Part shown: in pieces, positions 34,349-42,919 of the stretch
Position numbering within the stretch: position 1 is the first letter of the stretch
How the letters are laid out: each line of letters opens with the position of its first letter
Source: Phycisphaerales bacterium
GTDB lineage: Bacteria > Planctomycetota > Phycisphaerae > Phycisphaerales > UBA1924
Reading direction: 5' to 3'
Length of the DNA: 45,518 nt
Assembly (NCBI GenBank): GCA_029260315.1
Contig: JAJDDM010000004.1
Location: 1-45,518, forward strand
Program-made: the position numbers and the translations under genes
The notes under the pieces: model-generated
Database searches by the model: none
Told to the model about the DNA's origin: nothing
What the model saw: the letters and a program-made list of their open reading frames with translations, nothing else

Positions 34349-35663
34349 TTCCGAGCAACTGCGCATCATCCTCGTCGGGCCCACGGGCCTCGACGATCGC
34401 CTGCGCTTCCGCCCCGGCGTCGAGCTCGTCCACGTCGCCAACGCGATCGACGCCGTCGGCGAACTCGCCGACCCGCTCGATGGCGACTCGCCCGCGCGAT
34501 CGGTCGTGATCGTCGCTCCCAGCCGATGCCCGAAGCAGGGCGCAGACGACTTCGTCCGCGCCCTCCGCGAGGTCGAGCCCGACGTCCGCGTCGTGCTCGC
34601 TTCCAGCAACGGCAAGGACGCCTCGGCGTTCGACGCCACGATCGACCCCGCCGCCGACGAGGACGATATTCGAAGCGCTCTCGACGAACCCGATACGCGA
34701 CCCGCGGATCCGAGCGAGCGTTCGTCGGACGCACCAACCCCAACTCGCTCGTCCGATCCCGGGGCGCTGCCCGAGTCGATCGAGCCCAGCCCACCCGAGA
34801 ACCAGTCCGACAACCTCGCCGACGCCGGCGACGCCTCGCTCGTCTCGGCGATGCTCCACGGGCACGACGTCCTCGCGTCGGCGCTCGAAGCCCTCGCCGA
34901 GCGCCTCGGCCCCGCCGTGACCTTCACCAGCCAGGCCGAGAGCGACGCCGACTCGGACGCAACCCCAATTGCAGTCGAGGTCCGCTGGCACGACCGCGTC
35001 TTCGGCTATCTCGACGCCCCGGGCGTCGAACCCCAGACCCTCGCCCGCGAGGCGATGTGGCTCGCCGGCTGGCTCCGTCTCAACGAGCAACAGAAGCAGC
35101 TCAGAGAGGCCGCGCTCACCGACCCGCTCACCGGTGCCTGGAACCGGCGCTACTTCGACCGCTTCCTCCCCGTCGCGATCGAGCGTGCCCGCAAGTCGCG
35201 TGCCTCGCTCACCGTTCTGGTCTTCGACATCGACGATTTCAAGCGGTTCAACACCGAGTTCGGGCACGCCGCCGGCGACGACATCCTCATCGAGACCGTC
35301 AAGCTCCTGCGCAGCACCATCCGCCCGACCGACCGCGTCTGCCGCATCGGCGGCGACGAGTTCTGCGTCATCTTCCACGAGCCCACCGGCCCGCGCGAGG
35401 CCGGCTCCAAGCCCCCCGAGAACGTCTACCAGATATCCAAGCGCTTCCAGGAGGCCATCTGCGCCCGCCGCTTCCCCAAGCTCGGCCTCGACGCCCCCGG
35501 CACCCTCTCGATCTCCGGCGGGCTGGCGACCTATCCCTGGGACGGACGCGACGCCCGCGAGCTGCTCGAGCACGCCGACCAGCTCTCCCTCCAGAGCAAA
35601 CAGCACGGCAAGAACGCGATTTTGCTGGGGCCGGGGGCGGCGAGGGTGTGCGGCACTGAATGA
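34341..35663 (+). CDS. Diguanylate cyclase (GGDEF domain) with receiver-like and GAF-like N-terminus
   Basis: A 440-residue predicted enzyme making cyclic di-GMP from two GTP. The C-terminal domain (about residues 260-440) has DPLTGAWNRRYFDRF, FDIDDFKRFNTEFGHAAGDDIL and an intact catalytic RIGGDEF. RPTD lies five residues before GGDEF, forming the RxxD product-inhibition site. The first 110 residues resemble a degenerate receiver (LRIILVGPTG, SVVIVAPSR, VRVVLASSNG), a disordered acidic/Ser-Pro linker follows, and residues about 165-250 are GAF-like. ATG 34341 was preferred over 34329, which abuts the GGGAGG. It overlaps the preceding gene. The last 26 codons recur in the chimeric pseudogene at 39431. 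Confidence 0.88.
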   Translation: MADSEQLRIILVGPTGLDDRLRFRPGVELVHVANAIDAVGELADPLDGDSPARSVVIVAPSRCPKQGADDFVRALREVEPDVRVVLASSNGKDASAFDATIDPAADEDDIRSALDEPDTRPADPSERSSDAPTPTRSSDPGALPESIEPSPPENQSDNLADAGDASLVSAMLHGHDVLASALEALAERLGPAVTFTSQAESDADSDATPIAVEVRWHDRVFGYLDAPGVEPQTLAREAMWLAGWLRLNEQQKQLREAALTDPLTGAWNRRYFDRFLPVAIERARKSRASLTVLVFDIDDFKRFNTEFGHAAGDDILIETVKLLRSTIRPTDRVCRIGGDEFCVIFHEPTGPREAGSKPPENVYQISKRFQEAICARRFPKLGLDAPGTLSISGGLATYPWDGRDARELLEHADQLSLQSKQHGKNAILLGPGAARVCGTE

Positions 35664-35739: not shown

Positions 35740-36303
35740 GTGCCTATCTGGCCCTCTGACATACCACCGCCCAAGCCCGCCAAGCTCTCCTACAAGTTCC
35801 AACTCGAATATGACGGCATGGAAGAGGCAATCCTCGAAGCCGAAGCCCAGGTGGAGCGGCTGGAGGCCGAGGCCGCCGACCCGGCACTCACCTCCGACCA
35901 CAAGCGAGCCGCAACGGTCTACTCTAAGCTCAAGGATGGGCAGGCGCGCGTGACCGAGCTCTACGCACGGTGGGCCGAAGCGCTCAACGTGGTCGAGCGC
36001 TGGAACGGAGCCAACGGCTTCATCTTCTTCGGCAAGGGCGGCGAGGTCGCGACGAACCGGCTCGACGACCAGGAGGTGTCCGTCCTGAGTCTCCACCTGC
36101 TTCAAGTTGCGCTCGCGTATGTGAACACGCACTTGCTTCAGTCCGTGCTCGCGGGGGAGGAGTGGATGGCGAGCATGGCGGACGAGGATTTCCGAACGCC
36201 GACTCCGCTCATCCACAGCCACGTCAACCCGTACGGCACCTTCGAGCTCGACATGAGAAGGCGGTTGCGGCTTGATGCGCCGGTGGAGCATCTGGTACGA
36301 TGA
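35740..36303 (+). pseudogene. Fusion of an ABC-F (Uup-type) C-terminal fragment to a Tn3-family transposase C-terminal fragment
   Basis: A 187-codon open frame that joins two unrelated remnants. Residues 10-85 ([20 protein letters not shown], then [13 protein letters not shown] and LYARWAEAL) match the charged coiled-coil C-terminal domain of ABC-F ATPases such as Uup. From about residue 87, [20 protein letters not shown], then [19 protein letters not shown] and [18 protein letters not shown] match the last roughly 100 residues of Tn3-family transposases. Neither part has its catalytic domain. The frame is open across the junction (near 35998), so a protein could be made, but a useful function is unlikely. 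The remnants mark the left edge of the accessory region. Confidence 0.75.
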
Positions 36304-37411: not shown

Positions 37412-38398
37412 TCAATGATGAGGCTTTGCTGAAAGCCGTTGCCTCCACCGCCTTATCAGCAGTTCATCCGATAGCAGTTCATATAAGGCTGATGTGATCG
37501 GAAGATCTGGGGTCGAATCGCAAAAGAGAAACTGCCCTGAAGGGTTGATCTCGAAAAAGAAAACCCGGCCGTCCGGCGTTACCCGCAGGTCGATTGCTCC
37601 ATACGCTAGACCAAGCGTCCGTGTGAGCTCTATGCACATCGACGACAGCTCGTTTGACAACTTGGTTTCCTTCATCGGAATCCCCAAATCCAATCGCCAA
37701 TCGATCGGGCTGCTCTCTTCACCAGATTCGATGCGAGACGCGAACACACTGTCCCCAACAACCGTCGCTCGAATGTCATGGGCTGACGGTACAAACCACT
37801 GAAATTGCACCGGACAATATTTGATATTCTCTTCGCGCTCCAAGATTTGTTCGTCAACGATTCGGGTTTCACCCAAGTGGTACTTCGCGTCTGTCTGGGC
37901 CTTAAAGACAACCTTGCCAGAGTGAATATCAAAAAAGCTTCGAGCTGTGATTGGTGAATTTGTGATACAAGTCTCGGGAATCAAAAACCCAACCCTTCGA
38001 GCTGCTTGAAGCTGGAGGATCTTGTTGTTTGCACGCCTCTCGCGAAATGGATCGTTGACGGCGAAGCATCCGCAGGCGGCGATCAGTCCATCAAGGGTTG
38101 TTTCGCATTCTGAGACGACAAACTGTCGCATTCGCGGGTCACTAATCTCGAAGGACGGGACGAATGCTTGTGGTCTACGCCACCATATGGAGGTCTCAGC
38201 ATTGATCTCAATCTGGTCTGATCCACCAAAGACAATGCCGGGAGTATCGTGTTCCCAAGTGACAGTTATGCCTGCATCTGGGTATAGAGACGTATCCAGA
38301 ATCTTAACCAACGGGCCGTTTCGTGACTCTGCAATTCGTTTCAAAGCAAAGGCATGAATGTCATCTTGTCGGCTTACTATTACAACATAAGATGGCAT
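37412..38398 (-). CDS. Graspetide-forming ATP-grasp ligase (MvdD/PsnB type)
   Basis: A 328-residue ligase of the family that builds side-chain ester or amide links in microviridin/plesiocin-type peptides (graspetides). A pre-ATP-grasp domain includes the family mark IWWRRP (71-76). Then come NNKILQLQAARRVGFLIPET (124-142), the ATP-binding Lys of VVFK (166), CPVQFQWFVPSAHDIRATVV (195-214), and DWRLDLG. The metal-binding end is GAIDLRVTPDG (D270) and FFEINPSGQFLF (E283, N285). These match the graspetide branch of the ATP-grasp superfamily rather than general carboxylate ligases. ATG 38396-38398 starts three bases after the precursor's stop codon. The AT content is clearly higher than in core genes. 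No transporter or acetyltransferase is adjacent. Confidence 0.88.
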   Translation of the reverse strand: MPSYVVIVSRQDDIHAFALKRIAESRNGPLVKILDTSLYPDAGITVTWEHDTPGIVFGGSDQIEINAETSIWWRRPQAFVPSFEISDPRMRQFVVSECETTLDGLIAACGCFAVNDPFRERRANNKILQLQAARRVGFLIPETCITNSPITARSFFDIHSGKVVFKAQTDAKYHLGETRIVDEQILEREENIKYCPVQFQWFVPSAHDIRATVVGDSVFASRIESGEESSPIDWRLDLGIPMKETKLSNELSSMCIELTRTLGLAYGAIDLRVTPDGRVFFFEINPSGQFLFCDSTPDLPITSALYELLSDELLIRRWRQRLSAKPHH

Positions 38399-38401
38399 TC
38401 G

Positions 38402-39001
38402 TTAGTCCACGTCAGTTTCATAGTCCGTTGAATAATCTGTCTTTGTATCGCCCTTCTGGTCAGTGGTGGAATCTGCATTCTGCGTGGTCGTCCGATAGGG
38501 CGTCCAATACTGAGTCGGACGACCTGTTGGCATCGGGGTCAAGCGGAAAGTAGGTGCCGTCGAATGAGTGGGAAAATCCGACAAATTGGCCTGATCGAGA
38601 AACCTCTGATACTCCTCCTCGTACTGTTCTTCAGGAATTGCGAATTGGCTTGCTTGCGAAGGAACATCGTAAACCAATGGTTTCATTCCGATTCTCGACG
38701 CGAATTGTCGGGCTTCAACCATACGGAGCACTTTGACTTTTGATTCGGGGTTGAGTGTGACGGTAATCTCAACCTGATCTGGTGAAACAGCGGGCTGCGA
38801 TTCGCTCTCTGTCACGTTTTTGATATCCGCCAAATTGATGTAGAGAATACTCTTCCCGACCGCGACGAGGAGTTCACCGTCATTCTTGTTCATCAGAATG
38901 CCCGTGATGGACACAGTCCCCTCCAGTACAGCTTGTGACGTGATTTCTGAGGATGCTTGTGCCCTTTTCAGCAGCTCATTGATCTTGTCTTCGTTGTTCA
39001 T
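38402..39001 (-). CDS. Graspetide precursor with unusually long leader and Thr/Asp ladder core
   Basis: A 199-residue putative substrate of the ligase encoded directly downstream. Residues 1-140 form a folded-looking leader: a charged N-terminal helix, a beta-rich middle (LEGTVSITGILMNKNDGELL) and an acidic helix ending EEYQRFLDQANL, whose QRFL recalls the ligase-recognised motif of microviridin leaders. The core (151-199) has Thr at 151, 155, 159, 163, 167 and 171, a TTQNA turn, and Asp at 177, 181, 185, 189, 193 and 197. I re-derived these positions codon by codon. Extra Thr precede most Asp. Ester bonds between the two rows are predicted, not shown. ATG 38999-39001 follows AGGGA. Confidence 0.8.
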   Translation of the reverse strand: MNNEDKINELLKRAQASSEITSQAVLEGTVSITGILMNKNDGELLVAVGKSILYINLADIKNVTESESQPAVSPDQVEITVTLNPESKVKVLRMVEARQFASRIGMKPLVYDVPSQASQFAIPEEQYEEEYQRFLDQANLSDFPTHSTAPTFRLTPMPTGRPTQYWTPYRTTTQNADSTTDQKGDTKTDYSTDYETDVD

Positions 39002-39412: not shown

Positions 39413-39430
39413 ACACCCCTACCCTCCCGC

Positions 39431-39595
39431 ATGCCCCCATACGACCTCCTCGCCATCGACCTCGACGGCACTCTCCTCAACTCCCAAGGCGAAATCTCCC
39501 CCGCAAACCGCCTCGCCCTCCAGAGCAAGCAGCAGGGCAAGAACGCGATCCTGCTGGGACCCGGCGCGGCGAGGGTGTGTGGGGAACCCGACTGA
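39431..39595 (+). pseudogene. Chimeric remnant: HAD phosphatase start joined to GGDEF protein end
   Basis: A 54-codon open frame. Its first 29 or so residues (MPPYDLLAIDLDGTLLNSQG, EISPANR) copy the start of the HAD protein at 42029 (MLPYDLLALDLDGTLLNSRG). The rest (LALQSKQQGKNAILLGPGAA, RVCG) copies the last 26 residues of the GGDEF protein at 34341. The junction is near 39513. Neither activity can survive. It looks like the scar of a deletion between a HAD gene and a following second GGDEF gene. Confidence 0.85.
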
Positions 39596-39759: not shown

Positions 39760-41217
39760 ATGGCAGTAGCATCGCGGCAAAAGTCCACCGGCGCATATTT
39801 CACGCCCGACGATACCGTTCGTTCGCTGGTGAGTTGGGCCGTGCGTTCCTCGTCCGATCGAATGCTCGATCCTTCGTGCGGTGATGGGCGATTCTTGGCC
39901 GCGCACTTGAACAGCACAGGCGTCGAACTCGATCCCGACTCGCATGCCACGGCCCGTCAGCGAGCCCCCCACTCGACGATCTACAACAGCGAGTTTTTCT
40001 CCTGGGCAATGAGCCACGGGAAACGCTTCGAGTGCGCCGTGGGGAATCCGCCGTTCATTCGGTATCAGCGATTCGCGGGACAGGTGCGGAAAGATGCGCT
40101 GTTGATTTGTCAACGACTCGGCGTCAAGTTCTCAGCTCTCGCTTCTTCTTGGGCGCCATTCCTTGTAGCAGCGTCTGCTCTTCTCAAGCCCGGCGGTCGC
40201 ATGGCCTTCGTCGTCCCGGCCGAGATCGGCCATGCACCATACGCGAGGCCGATGCTGGCATACTTTGCTGATAACTTTGACGCCGTGACGATTGTGCCTG
40301 TCCGTAACAAGATTTTCTCCGATCTCTCAGAGGATTGCTGGCTGCTCTTCGCCGACGGATACGGGGGATCAACTGATTCGTTCAGGCTGTCACCGATGGA
40401 CGGCTTTGGGTATATGCCGTCACCGCCAGCCCACGGAGTGGATGTTTCACTCGACGAATGGGCCAACTGGAACTATCGACTCAGACCTTTCCTGCTCTCG
40501 CCGAAGGCCTTGGCGATGTATCGGGCACTGGCGGATGGAGACGAGACAGTACGTCTGGGTGATGCCGCAAGAGTCGGCATCGGCTATGTCACGGGCGACA
40601 ACGAGTTCTTTCACCTCCGTCCATCCCAAGCTGCCGCGGCGGGCATCCCGTTCACGTTGCTCAAGGAAACGGTTCGAAACGGACGATCGTTGCCAGCCAA
40701 GGCGGTCACGAGAACCGTCGTAAACTCCTGGATTAGCCGTGACAAGCCCATCTATCTCTTGCACATACCCGCGGACGCCGGACTTCCGCGTGGAGTACAG
40801 CGATACCTCGATTCACCAGCCGGCGAGAAGGCTCAGCAAGCCTACAAGTGCCGAAATCGTTCGCCATGGTACACCGTGCCAGATGTTTCAGCTCCCGATG
40901 CCTTCATTTCCTATATGAGCGGCGATGGGCCGGCTTTGGTGGCAAATCACGCGAACTGCGTCTGCACAAACTCGCTCCACGCGGTGCGGCTGACAAATGG
41001 ACTGAGGGTAAGCGATTTGCAACGGGCATGGGGTGACCCATTCACACGGCTGAGTTGTGAGCTCGAGGGGCACCCGCTCGGAGGTGGGATGCTCAAGCTG
41101 GAACCACGCGAGGCATCCCGTGTGGCATTGTTGATCCATCGCCAGTCGTCGCAGCGTGAGAGAAGTCTTATTCGCGACGGCATCGCCACACTCCGCCGCT
41201 GGCGGCATATCGATTGA
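39760..41217 (+). CDS. N6-adenine DNA methyltransferase of a restriction-modification pair
   Basis: A 485-residue protein predicted to methylate adenine at a specific DNA site. The order of motifs is that of gamma-type amino-methyltransferases: STGAYFTPDDTV (motif X), MLDPSCGDGRFLAA (SAM-binding motif I), GVELDPDSHATARQ (II), and the catalytic AVGNPPFIRYQRFA (IV, NPPF). These are followed by LLKPGGRMAFVVPAEIGHA and a C-terminal target-recognition part. The ATG at 39760 follows AGGAA. A gene with endonuclease-like features begins nine bases after its stop, so the two form a likely type II system. Recognition sequence unknown. GC content is below that of core genes. Confidence 0.85.
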   Translation: MAVASRQKSTGAYFTPDDTVRSLVSWAVRSSSDRMLDPSCGDGRFLAAHLNSTGVELDPDSHATARQRAPHSTIYNSEFFSWAMSHGKRFECAVGNPPFIRYQRFAGQVRKDALLICQRLGVKFSALASSWAPFLVAASALLKPGGRMAFVVPAEIGHAPYARPMLAYFADNFDAVTIVPVRNKIFSDLSEDCWLLFADGYGGSTDSFRLSPMDGFGYMPSPPAHGVDVSLDEWANWNYRLRPFLLSPKALAMYRALADGDETVRLGDAARVGIGYVTGDNEFFHLRPSQAAAAGIPFTLLKETVRNGRSLPAKAVTRTVVNSWISRDKPIYLLHIPADAGLPRGVQRYLDSPAGEKAQQAYKCRNRSPWYTVPDVSAPDAFISYMSGDGPALVANHANCVCTNSLHAVRLTNGLRVSDLQRAWGDPFTRLSCELEGHPLGGGMLKLEPREASRVALLIHRQSSQRERSLIRDGIATLRRWRHID

Positions 41218-41226
41218 CGCACTGGC

Positions 41227-41967
41227 ATGGCCGAACCGAGCCCACTTCAGCAAGCACTTCGAGAGTTGGCGCGTGCGTTGCCGCCAAAGCCAGCGGACGA
41301 TGCGCTCCAGAAGCACAAGAAACGGTATTCGGAGCAGATGTCCGCCTTGCTTGCTCTTGTATTCGCAGATGAACTCCGCAGGCGCGGCCTGAGCGAGACG
41401 CTGCCTGCTCGCGATGCTTCCAGCGGAGTTCGTGGTGGCGAACGCCGAATGGCCGGCGGGATTGGAGCGAAGAAGGTCGATATCACAGGGTCGACCGAGG
41501 AATCCGGGCTCCTCCTCGCGGTTTCGATCAAGACAATCAACTTTCGCGATGGTCGATCGAAGAACTACCAAAAGAACTTGATCAACCGTCGGGGCGACAT
41601 GCTCATGGAAGCGGTGACCCTCCATCGTCGATTTCCGTACGCCGTGTTAGTCGGCATGATGTTCTTGGATGGAGGAGCCGCGAATGATCATACGGAAAAG
41701 AGAAAATCGACGTTCGAGAACGCGCATCCCCGGCTTCGCCTCTTCACGGGTCGCGATGATCCGGCTGATCGGGACGAGCAGTTTGAACGCCTGTATCTAT
41801 CCCTCATCAATCTTGGCGACACCGATCGTCCTTTTCGGTTCTATGAGGTCGGCGAAGCGAACGCAGAGACTGGCCCCGATGCGGCAATCGACGACATGCT
41901 CCAGCAGATTGCCGAGCGAAATCCTGACCTGTACGAGTTCGAGAGCGGCCGTTTGATCAAGACTTGA
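41227..41967 (+). CDS. Putative restriction endonuclease partner of the adenine methyltransferase
   Basis: A 246-residue protein encoded nine bases after the methyltransferase gene. The central block GGERRMAGGIGAKKVDITGS, then SGLLLAVSIKTINFRDGRSK, has the spacing of a PD-(D/E)xK nuclease core: the Asp of KKVDIT, then Ser-Ile-Lys in place of (D/E)xK. The first 70 residues are helical with a Lys-rich segment (ALQKHKKRYSEQMSALL). The downstream part includes MLMEAVTLHRRFPYAVLVGM. The role is inferred mainly from gene order and this motif; the acidic residue normally before xK is Ser, which needs explaining if the enzyme is active. It could instead be a non-nuclease accessory gene. Confidence 0.6.
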   Translation: MAEPSPLQQALRELARALPPKPADDALQKHKKRYSEQMSALLALVFADELRRRGLSETLPARDASSGVRGGERRMAGGIGAKKVDITGSTEESGLLLAVSIKTINFRDGRSKNYQKNLINRRGDMLMEAVTLHRRFPYAVLVGMMFLDGGAANDHTEKRKSTFENAHPRLRLFTGRDDPADRDEQFERLYLSLINLGDTDRPFRFYEVGEANAETGPDAAIDDMLQQIAERNPDLYEFESGRLIKT

Positions 41968-42028
41968 CTCGTTGTACTGTCTACAGCTCTCGCAGGCCTT
42001 CGATTGTTCGTCAAACCTATCCTCCTCC

Positions 42029-42919
42029 ATGCTCCCCTACGACCTCCTCGCCCTCGACCTCGACGGCACACTCCTCAACTCCCGCGGCGACATCTCCCAG
42101 GCAAACCGCAACGCCATCAACCGCGCCCGAACCGCCGGCATCACCGTCATCCCCTGCACCGGCCGCGGCATGATCGAGTCCGCCAAGGCCATCAGCGCCA
42201 TCGACCAGCAAGACCCCGTCATCGTCGCCGGCGGGGCGATCATCGCCTGCCCCGTCGATCAGCGCACCCTCCACCGCTTCCCGATCGATGAGACTCTCGT
42301 CGCCGGCGCGACCGCGACGCTCCTCGAACATGGCTACGCCGTCCTCGTCCTCAAGGACCGCCTCGCCGTCGGCTACGACTACCTCGTCGTCCAAGGAGAC
42401 AAGGGCCACGAAATAGACCCCGTGACATCCTGGTGGTTCAAGGAGATGAACGCTCTGGTCCGCTACGCCGCCTCCATCTTCGAGGACGAGCACCCCGAGC
42501 ACACCGTCCGCGTCGGCGCCTGCGGCATCAGCACCGGCTTCCGCCCCATCCAGGCCAAGTTGGCCAGCACCTACGCCGACAGCCTCTGCGTCCAGCACTT
42601 TCAGGCCGTGACCTCCAGGCAGCACGCCGAGGGCCTGAAGCCCGGCGAGACCCTCGACATCTTCGAGGTCTTCGACGCCCGCGCAAACAAGTGGTCCGCG
42701 CTCATGCACCTCGCCGGCGAGCGCGGCATCGAACCCACGCGCATCTGCGCCATCGGCGACGAGATCAACGACGAGCTCATGGTCGGCTCCGCGGCCCTCG
42801 GCATCGCCATGGGCAACGCCTGCGACAAGGTCAAGGCCGTGGCTCATCGCCATGCGCCGAGCCACGACGACGACGGCGTCGCCTTCGCCATCGACAAGAT
42901 CCTCGACGGAGCCTGGTAG
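42029..42919 (+). CDS. Cof-type HAD-IIB family phosphatase
   Basis: A 296-residue HAD-superfamily phosphatase, probably acting on sugar phosphates or similar small phosphate esters. Motif I is LDLDGTLLNS (Asp nucleophile, residues 9-13), motif II IPCTGRG, and motif IV GDEINDELMVGSAALGIAMGNA with the two metal-binding Asp. The cap domain between them fits the Cof/IIB group. ATG 42029 was chosen since the sequence starts directly with LPYDLLALDLDGT. The stop is one base before the rsmA start, so translational coupling is likely. A truncated duplicate of its first 29 codons occurs at 39431. Confidence 0.9.
   Translation: MLPYDLLALDLDGTLLNSRGDISQANRNAINRARTAGITVIPCTGRGMIESAKAISAIDQQDPVIVAGGAIIACPVDQRTLHRFPIDETLVAGATATLLEHGYAVLVLKDRLAVGYDYLVVQGDKGHEIDPVTSWWFKEMNALVRYAASIFEDEHPEHTVRVGACGISTGFRPIQAKLASTYADSLCVQHFQAVTSRQHAEGLKPGETLDIFEVFDARANKWSALMHLAGERGIEPTRICAIGDEINDELMVGSAALGIAMGNACDKVKAVAHRHAPSHDDDGVAFAIDKILDGAW

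Follow-up and report, generated by a model that had tools for sequence, protein, structure and literature searches.

A gene pair from a Phycisphaerales bacterium predicted to encode a graspetide with six nested ester rungs

The 45,518-nucleotide stretch of a Phycisphaerales genome analyzed here (hereafter the window; contig JAJDDM010000004.1 of assembly GCA_029260315.1) raises the question of what an ATP-grasp ligase would make of a neighboring protein that carries six threonines and six aspartates in two evenly spaced rows. The precursor gene (38402..39001, minus strand) encodes 199 residues from an ATG at 39001 to a stop codon at 38402-38404, and the four homologues align from the first methionine. 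The ligase gene (37412..38398, minus strand; 328 residues, predicted to be ester-forming from NCBIfam models and PDB relatives) has its ATG three bases past the precursor stop, and the two genes are probably translationally coupled. It is likely that the pair encodes a graspetide-kind ATP-grasp ligase and its precursor, and that the predicted links T171-D177, T167-D181, T163-D185, T159-D189, T155-D193 and T151-D197 would give six nested ester rungs.

The core comprises a donor arm (residues 151-171; 38489..38551, minus strand) with Thr rungs at 151, 155, 159, 163, 167 and 171, a turn of sequence TTQNA (residues 172-176; 38474..38488, minus strand) that is invariant in four of four precursors, and an acceptor arm (residues 177-197; 38411..38473, minus strand) with Asp rungs at 177, 181, 185, 189, 193 and 197. 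Both rows and the five-residue turn, as described in the initial annotation (which gave no strand), match the minus-strand translation exactly. From residue 131 onward, further threonines occur at 145, 148, 172, 173, 179, 180, 186, 188, 192 and 196 and further aspartates at 136, 142 and 199. The six-rung Thr/Asp register is beyond chance. With a ladder score defined as the best Thr-then-Asp rows of equal spacing (2-6) around a turn of 2-14 residues, six rungs appeared in none of 20,000 shuffles of residues 145-199 (maximum four, reached by 16 shuffles) and in none of 20,000 shuffles within the halves of the core (maximum five, reached by eight). Among 601 stop-to-stop frames of at least 40 residues in the window, only the precursor itself scored six and all others scored two or fewer; the 2,805 such frames of 44 loci outside the window included a single one with three rungs, the others reaching at most two.

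Three homologous precursors were identified. P0002 (54% identity) and P0003 (47%) were retrieved by the first protein search with the window's precursor (P0001), and P0124 (50%) was added by a profile search that gave no further match at E 1; both searches rely on shared five-residue words, so more distant precursors may be missed. The rows number six and six in P0001, P0002 and P0124 and five and five in P0003, each arm of which is four residues shorter, with the Thr and Asp, five of each, still in register. Rows of unequal number or out of register, which the initial annotation had named as grounds for rejecting the ladder, are thus absent from the three homologues found, and the conservation that it proposed to look for is there: the rungs are kept and the residues between them mostly vary. 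All 12 ladder columns are invariant when the gaps of P0003 are set aside, compared with four of the 30 between-rung columns (152, 154, 166 and 191), a difference for which Fisher's p of 1.6e-7 is indicative only because the four precursors are related. The closing D197-V-D199 is also unchanged across the four. The threonines at 180, 188, 192 and 196, suggested earlier as alternative donors, are disfavored because each position varies, the residues in P0001, P0002, P0124 and P0003 being, in that order, TTMT, TILT, TATT and TSAS.

The same alignment bears on how the rows would be paired. The ladder could be shifted by one step to give five nested rungs, from T167-D177 around a nine-residue loop out to T151-D193, with T171 and D197 left free. 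Such a loop would be closer to the ten residues of fuscimiditide and amycolimiditide, and P0001 would again give six rungs if Ser were allowed, with S147 as the outermost donor. However, T171 and D197 are invariant in all four precursors, and position 147, one step outside T151, is S, P, I or V, hence this sixth donor is not conserved; we give the shifted pairing a small chance. As position 147 holds no conserved Thr or Ser in the four precursors, a seventh donor in the register of the six-rung ladder is likewise unsupported.

It could also be that only the inner rungs are formed, the outer repeats being modified partly or not at all. According to the available text of PMC12291112, several stem-extended constructs with changed interstitial residues were not fully modified by ThfB, the fuscimiditide ligase, which lends this reading some substance. 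Unused residues would be expected to drift, yet T151 and D197, at the outer end of the ladder, show no more variation than the innermost pair, and the chance that the outer repeats go partly or wholly unmodified therefore seems slim.

The shorter arms of P0003 provide evidence on pairing order. Each single between-rung segment was dropped in turn from either arm of P0003 and the result scored against the other three precursors. In the donor arm the drop of segment 2, counted from the turn, scored best (81, next 66), and in the acceptor arm the drop of segment 2 was again best (76, next 66). At residue level, the candidate missing donor-arm unit is residues 164-167 (38501..38512, minus strand), one of four near-equal placements from 163-166 to 166-169 with scores of 156-158; the candidate acceptor-arm unit is residues 182-185 (38447..38458, minus strand), which ties with 181-184 at 196, while 183-186 and 184-187 score 194. 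Residues 182-184 would oppose 164-166 in a nested ladder. The gaps favor nesting because segment 2 of both arms would together make up a single ring, one strand each, bounded by rungs 2 and 3. With five segments per arm, chance alone would bring the two arms into agreement in roughly one case out of five, and with P0124 alone as reference the acceptor-arm placement is ambiguous (12, 11 and 8 for segments 3, 1 and 2). The paired gap is therefore support rather than proof, since it is a single event with modest margins and near-tied residue placements, and P0124 slightly prefers segment 3.

A ladder that uses every Thr and Asp rung in crossed order, parallel or interlocking, would retain the equal rows, which alone leave the partners undefined. 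Interlocking macrolactone rings exist in rosaritide (available text of PMC13097080), so the connectivity is not fixed by sequence. Against a crossed order, acceptor segment 4, the parallel partner of donor segment 2, scores only 28 against 76 for acceptor segment 2; the tight five-residue turn suits a hairpin; and the characterized Thr-Asp stem-loop graspetides are nested. Crossed rings are, in our estimate, quite improbable. Six nested rungs are the best-supported prediction among the readings considered, and the homologues have strengthened it.

The ligase best matches the NCBIfam model TIGR04187 (GRASP_SAV_5884, tgmB; E 4e-54, 183.9 bits against a curated cut-off of 350), followed by TIGR04184 (MvdD; E 6e-51, also below its curated cut-off). 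Because it falls under the cut-off of each named NCBIfam family, it would be a divergent graspetide-type member. Its solved relatives in the PDB are 5ig9, 7mgv, 5ig8, 7m4s, 9bou and 7drm, the best of which are annotated as graspetide-type ligases; they presumably include microviridin-type and plesiocin-type enzymes. D270, E283, N285, R210, K126 and K166 are invariant across 19 aligned ligase sequences, the window's included, and the D, E, N and R also occur in the five solved relatives for which alignments were displayed. We take the metal and ATP roles of these six residues from RimK-type enzymes. From its sequence, the protein is a ligase of the MvdC/MvdD/TgmB kind with its putative metal-binding residues intact. 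That the precursor carries no cross-links, its acidic Thr/Asp-rich tail being free and the ATP-grasp enzyme performing another ligation such as RimK-type amino acid addition, is highly improbable: RimK-type models also match the ligase (TIGR00768 at E 9e-15, and PF08443 just over its cut-off), but the graspetide models score far better, the top PDB relatives carry graspetide-type annotations, and one would not expect the four-residue spacing of a free tail to persist through changes in the residues between the rungs.

In a tree of the 120 listed of 147 ligase matches, built by a quick method, the window's ligase forms one clade with P0005, P0006 and P0007 (SH-aLRT 100). The longest contigs listed for ligases P0006 and P0007 (2499 and 2439 bases) equal in length those listed for precursors P0002 and P0124, which suggests that the ligase-precursor pair occurs there as well. 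No ligase from the contig of P0003 (longest 2017 bases) was found among the 120 listed matches.

The leader was taken as residues 1-144 (38570..39001, minus strand; the boundary is assumed). In the AlphaFold2 model it consists of a short helix, seven predicted strands between residues 31 and 114, and a helix at 124-137, with block-mean pLDDT values of 52-78 over residues 31-120 of the window's protein. The prediction, at low to middling confidence, is thus of a small domain rich in beta strands and flanked by helices. By sequence the leader had no match in the PDB at E 1, and a Foldseek search with the low-confidence model returned 568 matches at E 10 and none at E 0.001. A kinship of the leader with the long precursors of loci L008-L011 and L016 was also considered and is unsupported (hhalign probability 4.7, E 0.0086). 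The alignment of the four precursors contains a conserved leader block around G105-M-K-P-L-V-Y-D112. Within it, the nearly conserved P108-L-V-Y-D-V113 resembles by eye the graspetide leader motif Phhx(1,2)h, yet it begins at residue 108, outside the first 30 residues in which that motif commonly lies (available text of PMC8939145). For the core, strands are drawn at 152-170 and 180-198 of the window's protein at block-mean pLDDT 44-52, and the P0003 core has only two-residue strands (163-164 and 182-183). The models are neutral on the hairpin, because pLDDT in the window's core is about 50 and there is hardly any strand in the P0003 core.

A plausible course of biosynthesis can be proposed for the nested six-rung ladder. 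The leader would be bound by the ligase, and its conserved G-M-K-P-L block may dock the enzyme. The ligase would phosphorylate the Asp side chain, which the hydroxyl of the facing Thr would then attack. Ring closure would begin at the TTQNA turn and proceed outward in four-residue steps, with one water lost per rung, or 108.06 Da for six; esters of amycolimiditide are likewise formed first at the loop and then along the stem (available text of PMC13003496 and PMC12291112). No C39 leader peptidase was found in the organism's own genome (92% complete by tool estimate). One may guess from other graspetides that the released product would be a stapled hairpin that resists proteolysis and acts on other cells or on proteases.

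Within the family, ladder length appears to change by the paired gain or loss of one four-residue unit per arm. On balance, we lean towards a more general account of length-variable ester ladders, in which one ligase would zip outward from a fixed TTTQNAD turn by one four-residue step per rung, for six rungs in the window's precursor and five in that of a relative, and in which matched four-plus-four modules would be inserted or deleted so that repeat number encodes length. A laboratory counterpart is ThfA32, in which a four-residue unit was duplicated on both arms of ThfA and which mainly undergoes three dehydrations (available text of PMC12291112); this duplication resembles the change that separates P0001 from P0003. 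If the prediction is true, the ladder would exceed in length every natural nested ester ladder in the open-licence literature searched, and its four-by-four step would be strictly regular. Such a ladder would raise the questions of how a single ligase counts rungs and whether zipping from the turn has any limit. The natural gain and loss of paired modules might be copied to set hairpin length, and two genes make a simple test.

The nested stem-loop itself is already represented among characterized graspetides, with two rungs in fuscimiditide, three in OEP6-1 and four in amycolimiditide (available text of PMC13001092 and PMC12291112). The "new topology" of the initial annotation was therefore too strong a term: a ladder of six nested rungs would extend a known topology to a new size, and the novelty lies in the number of rungs, their regular spacing, the brevity of the turn and the length of the leader. 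Fuscimiditide (ThfA/ThfB, Thermobifida fusca) shares with the window's pair an ATP-grasp ligase, nested Thr-Asp links and rows four residues apart (Thr3/Thr7 and Asp18/Asp22), but it has two rungs, a ten-residue loop and an aspartimide formed by a PIMT-type methyltransferase; its ligase achieved complete modification with loops of 4-12 residues (available text of PMC12291112). Amycolimiditide (AmdA/AmdB) is likewise a nested ester stem-loop built from the loop outward, as predicted here, but has four rungs, a ten-residue loop and an aspartimide, in contrast to the window's pair with its six predicted rungs, its turn of five residues and its lack of an adjoining PIMT-type gene.

Beyond four links, SsfA of Streptomyces sp. 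F-3 has five esters whose connectivity is not mapped, one of them thought to use the C-terminal carboxylate (available text of PMC10787088). Several esters per precursor also occur in plesiocin and thuringinin, as tandem two-ester units in four and three repeats instead of one long ladder (available text of PMC12291112). The branch-1 precursors of Makarova et al. 2022 have a predicted core, TxxxTx(6-10)Dx(1-4)D, with Thr four residues apart as here, but their two-donor signature, known by prediction, is unlike the window's core (available text of PMC8939145). The "six ester cross-links" mentioned in the available text of PMC13003496 belong to engineered ThfA repeats. No graspetide with six nested rungs was found in the available text of the open-licence literature, where the longest mapped nested ladder has four. 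A predicted relative may be among the 21,584 graspetides of PMC13097080; of the 43 numbered graspetide groups (RODEO), 27, 28 and 35 consist, according to the available text of that study, of ligase and precursor only, and 27 and 42 take in candidate phyla.

As in other graspetide loci, the ligase adjoins a precursor made up of a leader and a C-terminal core rich in Thr and Asp. The TTQNA turn contains no Asp in any of the four precursors, as opposed to what defines a graspimiditide (group 13), and even the one-step shift in pairing would make D177 a rung rather than a loop Asp. No PIMT-type gene occurs on C119, the contig of the window; both PCMT-family matches in the genome are on other contigs, C191 and C49. 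With no Asp in the turn and no PIMT-type gene on the contig, the pair would represent a new graspetide variant and not a graspimiditide.

GC content is 0.496 over the gene pair versus 0.648 for the window, and reaches about 0.66-0.71 in the genes that flank the wider stretch on its two sides, a GGDEF gene and an rRNA-methylase gene. The precursor was found only in its own genome among 392 genomes of a phylum sample and, by profile search, among 400 of an overlapping order sample; two same-genus genomes without it are 87% and 70% complete. The restriction to one genome among the sampled relatives would fit a recent horizontal gain. No relative of precursor or ligase was found in viral contigs, and the 20 listed of 82 plasmid records that match the ligase are all at most 35.5% identical. 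Promoter-like sites (two; shuffle mean 1.0) and terminator-like sites (two; shuffle mean 1.8) are about as frequent as in shuffles.

The neighborhood contains several other unusual frames. A 187-residue frame at 35740-36303 has matches to an ABC-transporter C-terminal domain (residues 15-80) and then to the C-terminal end of a Tn3 transposase domain (residues 77-168) and is perhaps a relic of transposition. At 39760-41967, an Eco57I-type methylase is followed by a 246-residue frame that has no Pfam match at E 0.001 and may be its restriction counterpart. This restriction-modification pair is separated from the graspetide pair by a hybrid fragment (39418-39582), in which 39418-39520 corresponds to the start of a HAD-type gene (42016-42118, 85%) and 39502-39582 to where the GGDEF gene ends (35573-35653, 84%). 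No other places were returned when the organism's own genome was searched, and the fragment looks like the trace left by two insertions or duplications.

Ligase profile matches occur in 45 of 397 genomes of the class, the organism's own included; at 14 such loci besides the window's (L019-L032) no ladder was seen upstream of the ligase. At 14 of 15 further loci with ligase relatives (L017 was left out), inspection by eye of nearby forward frames, in part only of their last 110 residues, revealed no ladder. In Candidatus Uabimicrobium amorphum (L004, 3776-3937), a 53-residue frame directly upstream of a related ATP-grasp gene is perhaps a short graspetide precursor, one stretch of which resembles, by eye only, the block conserved in the leader of the window's precursor. 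In a genome of the same family (L027, 1071-1499), a 142-residue frame adjoining an ATP-grasp gene has four REE-x-DQ(D/E) repeats and is likely a multi-repeat graspetide precursor.
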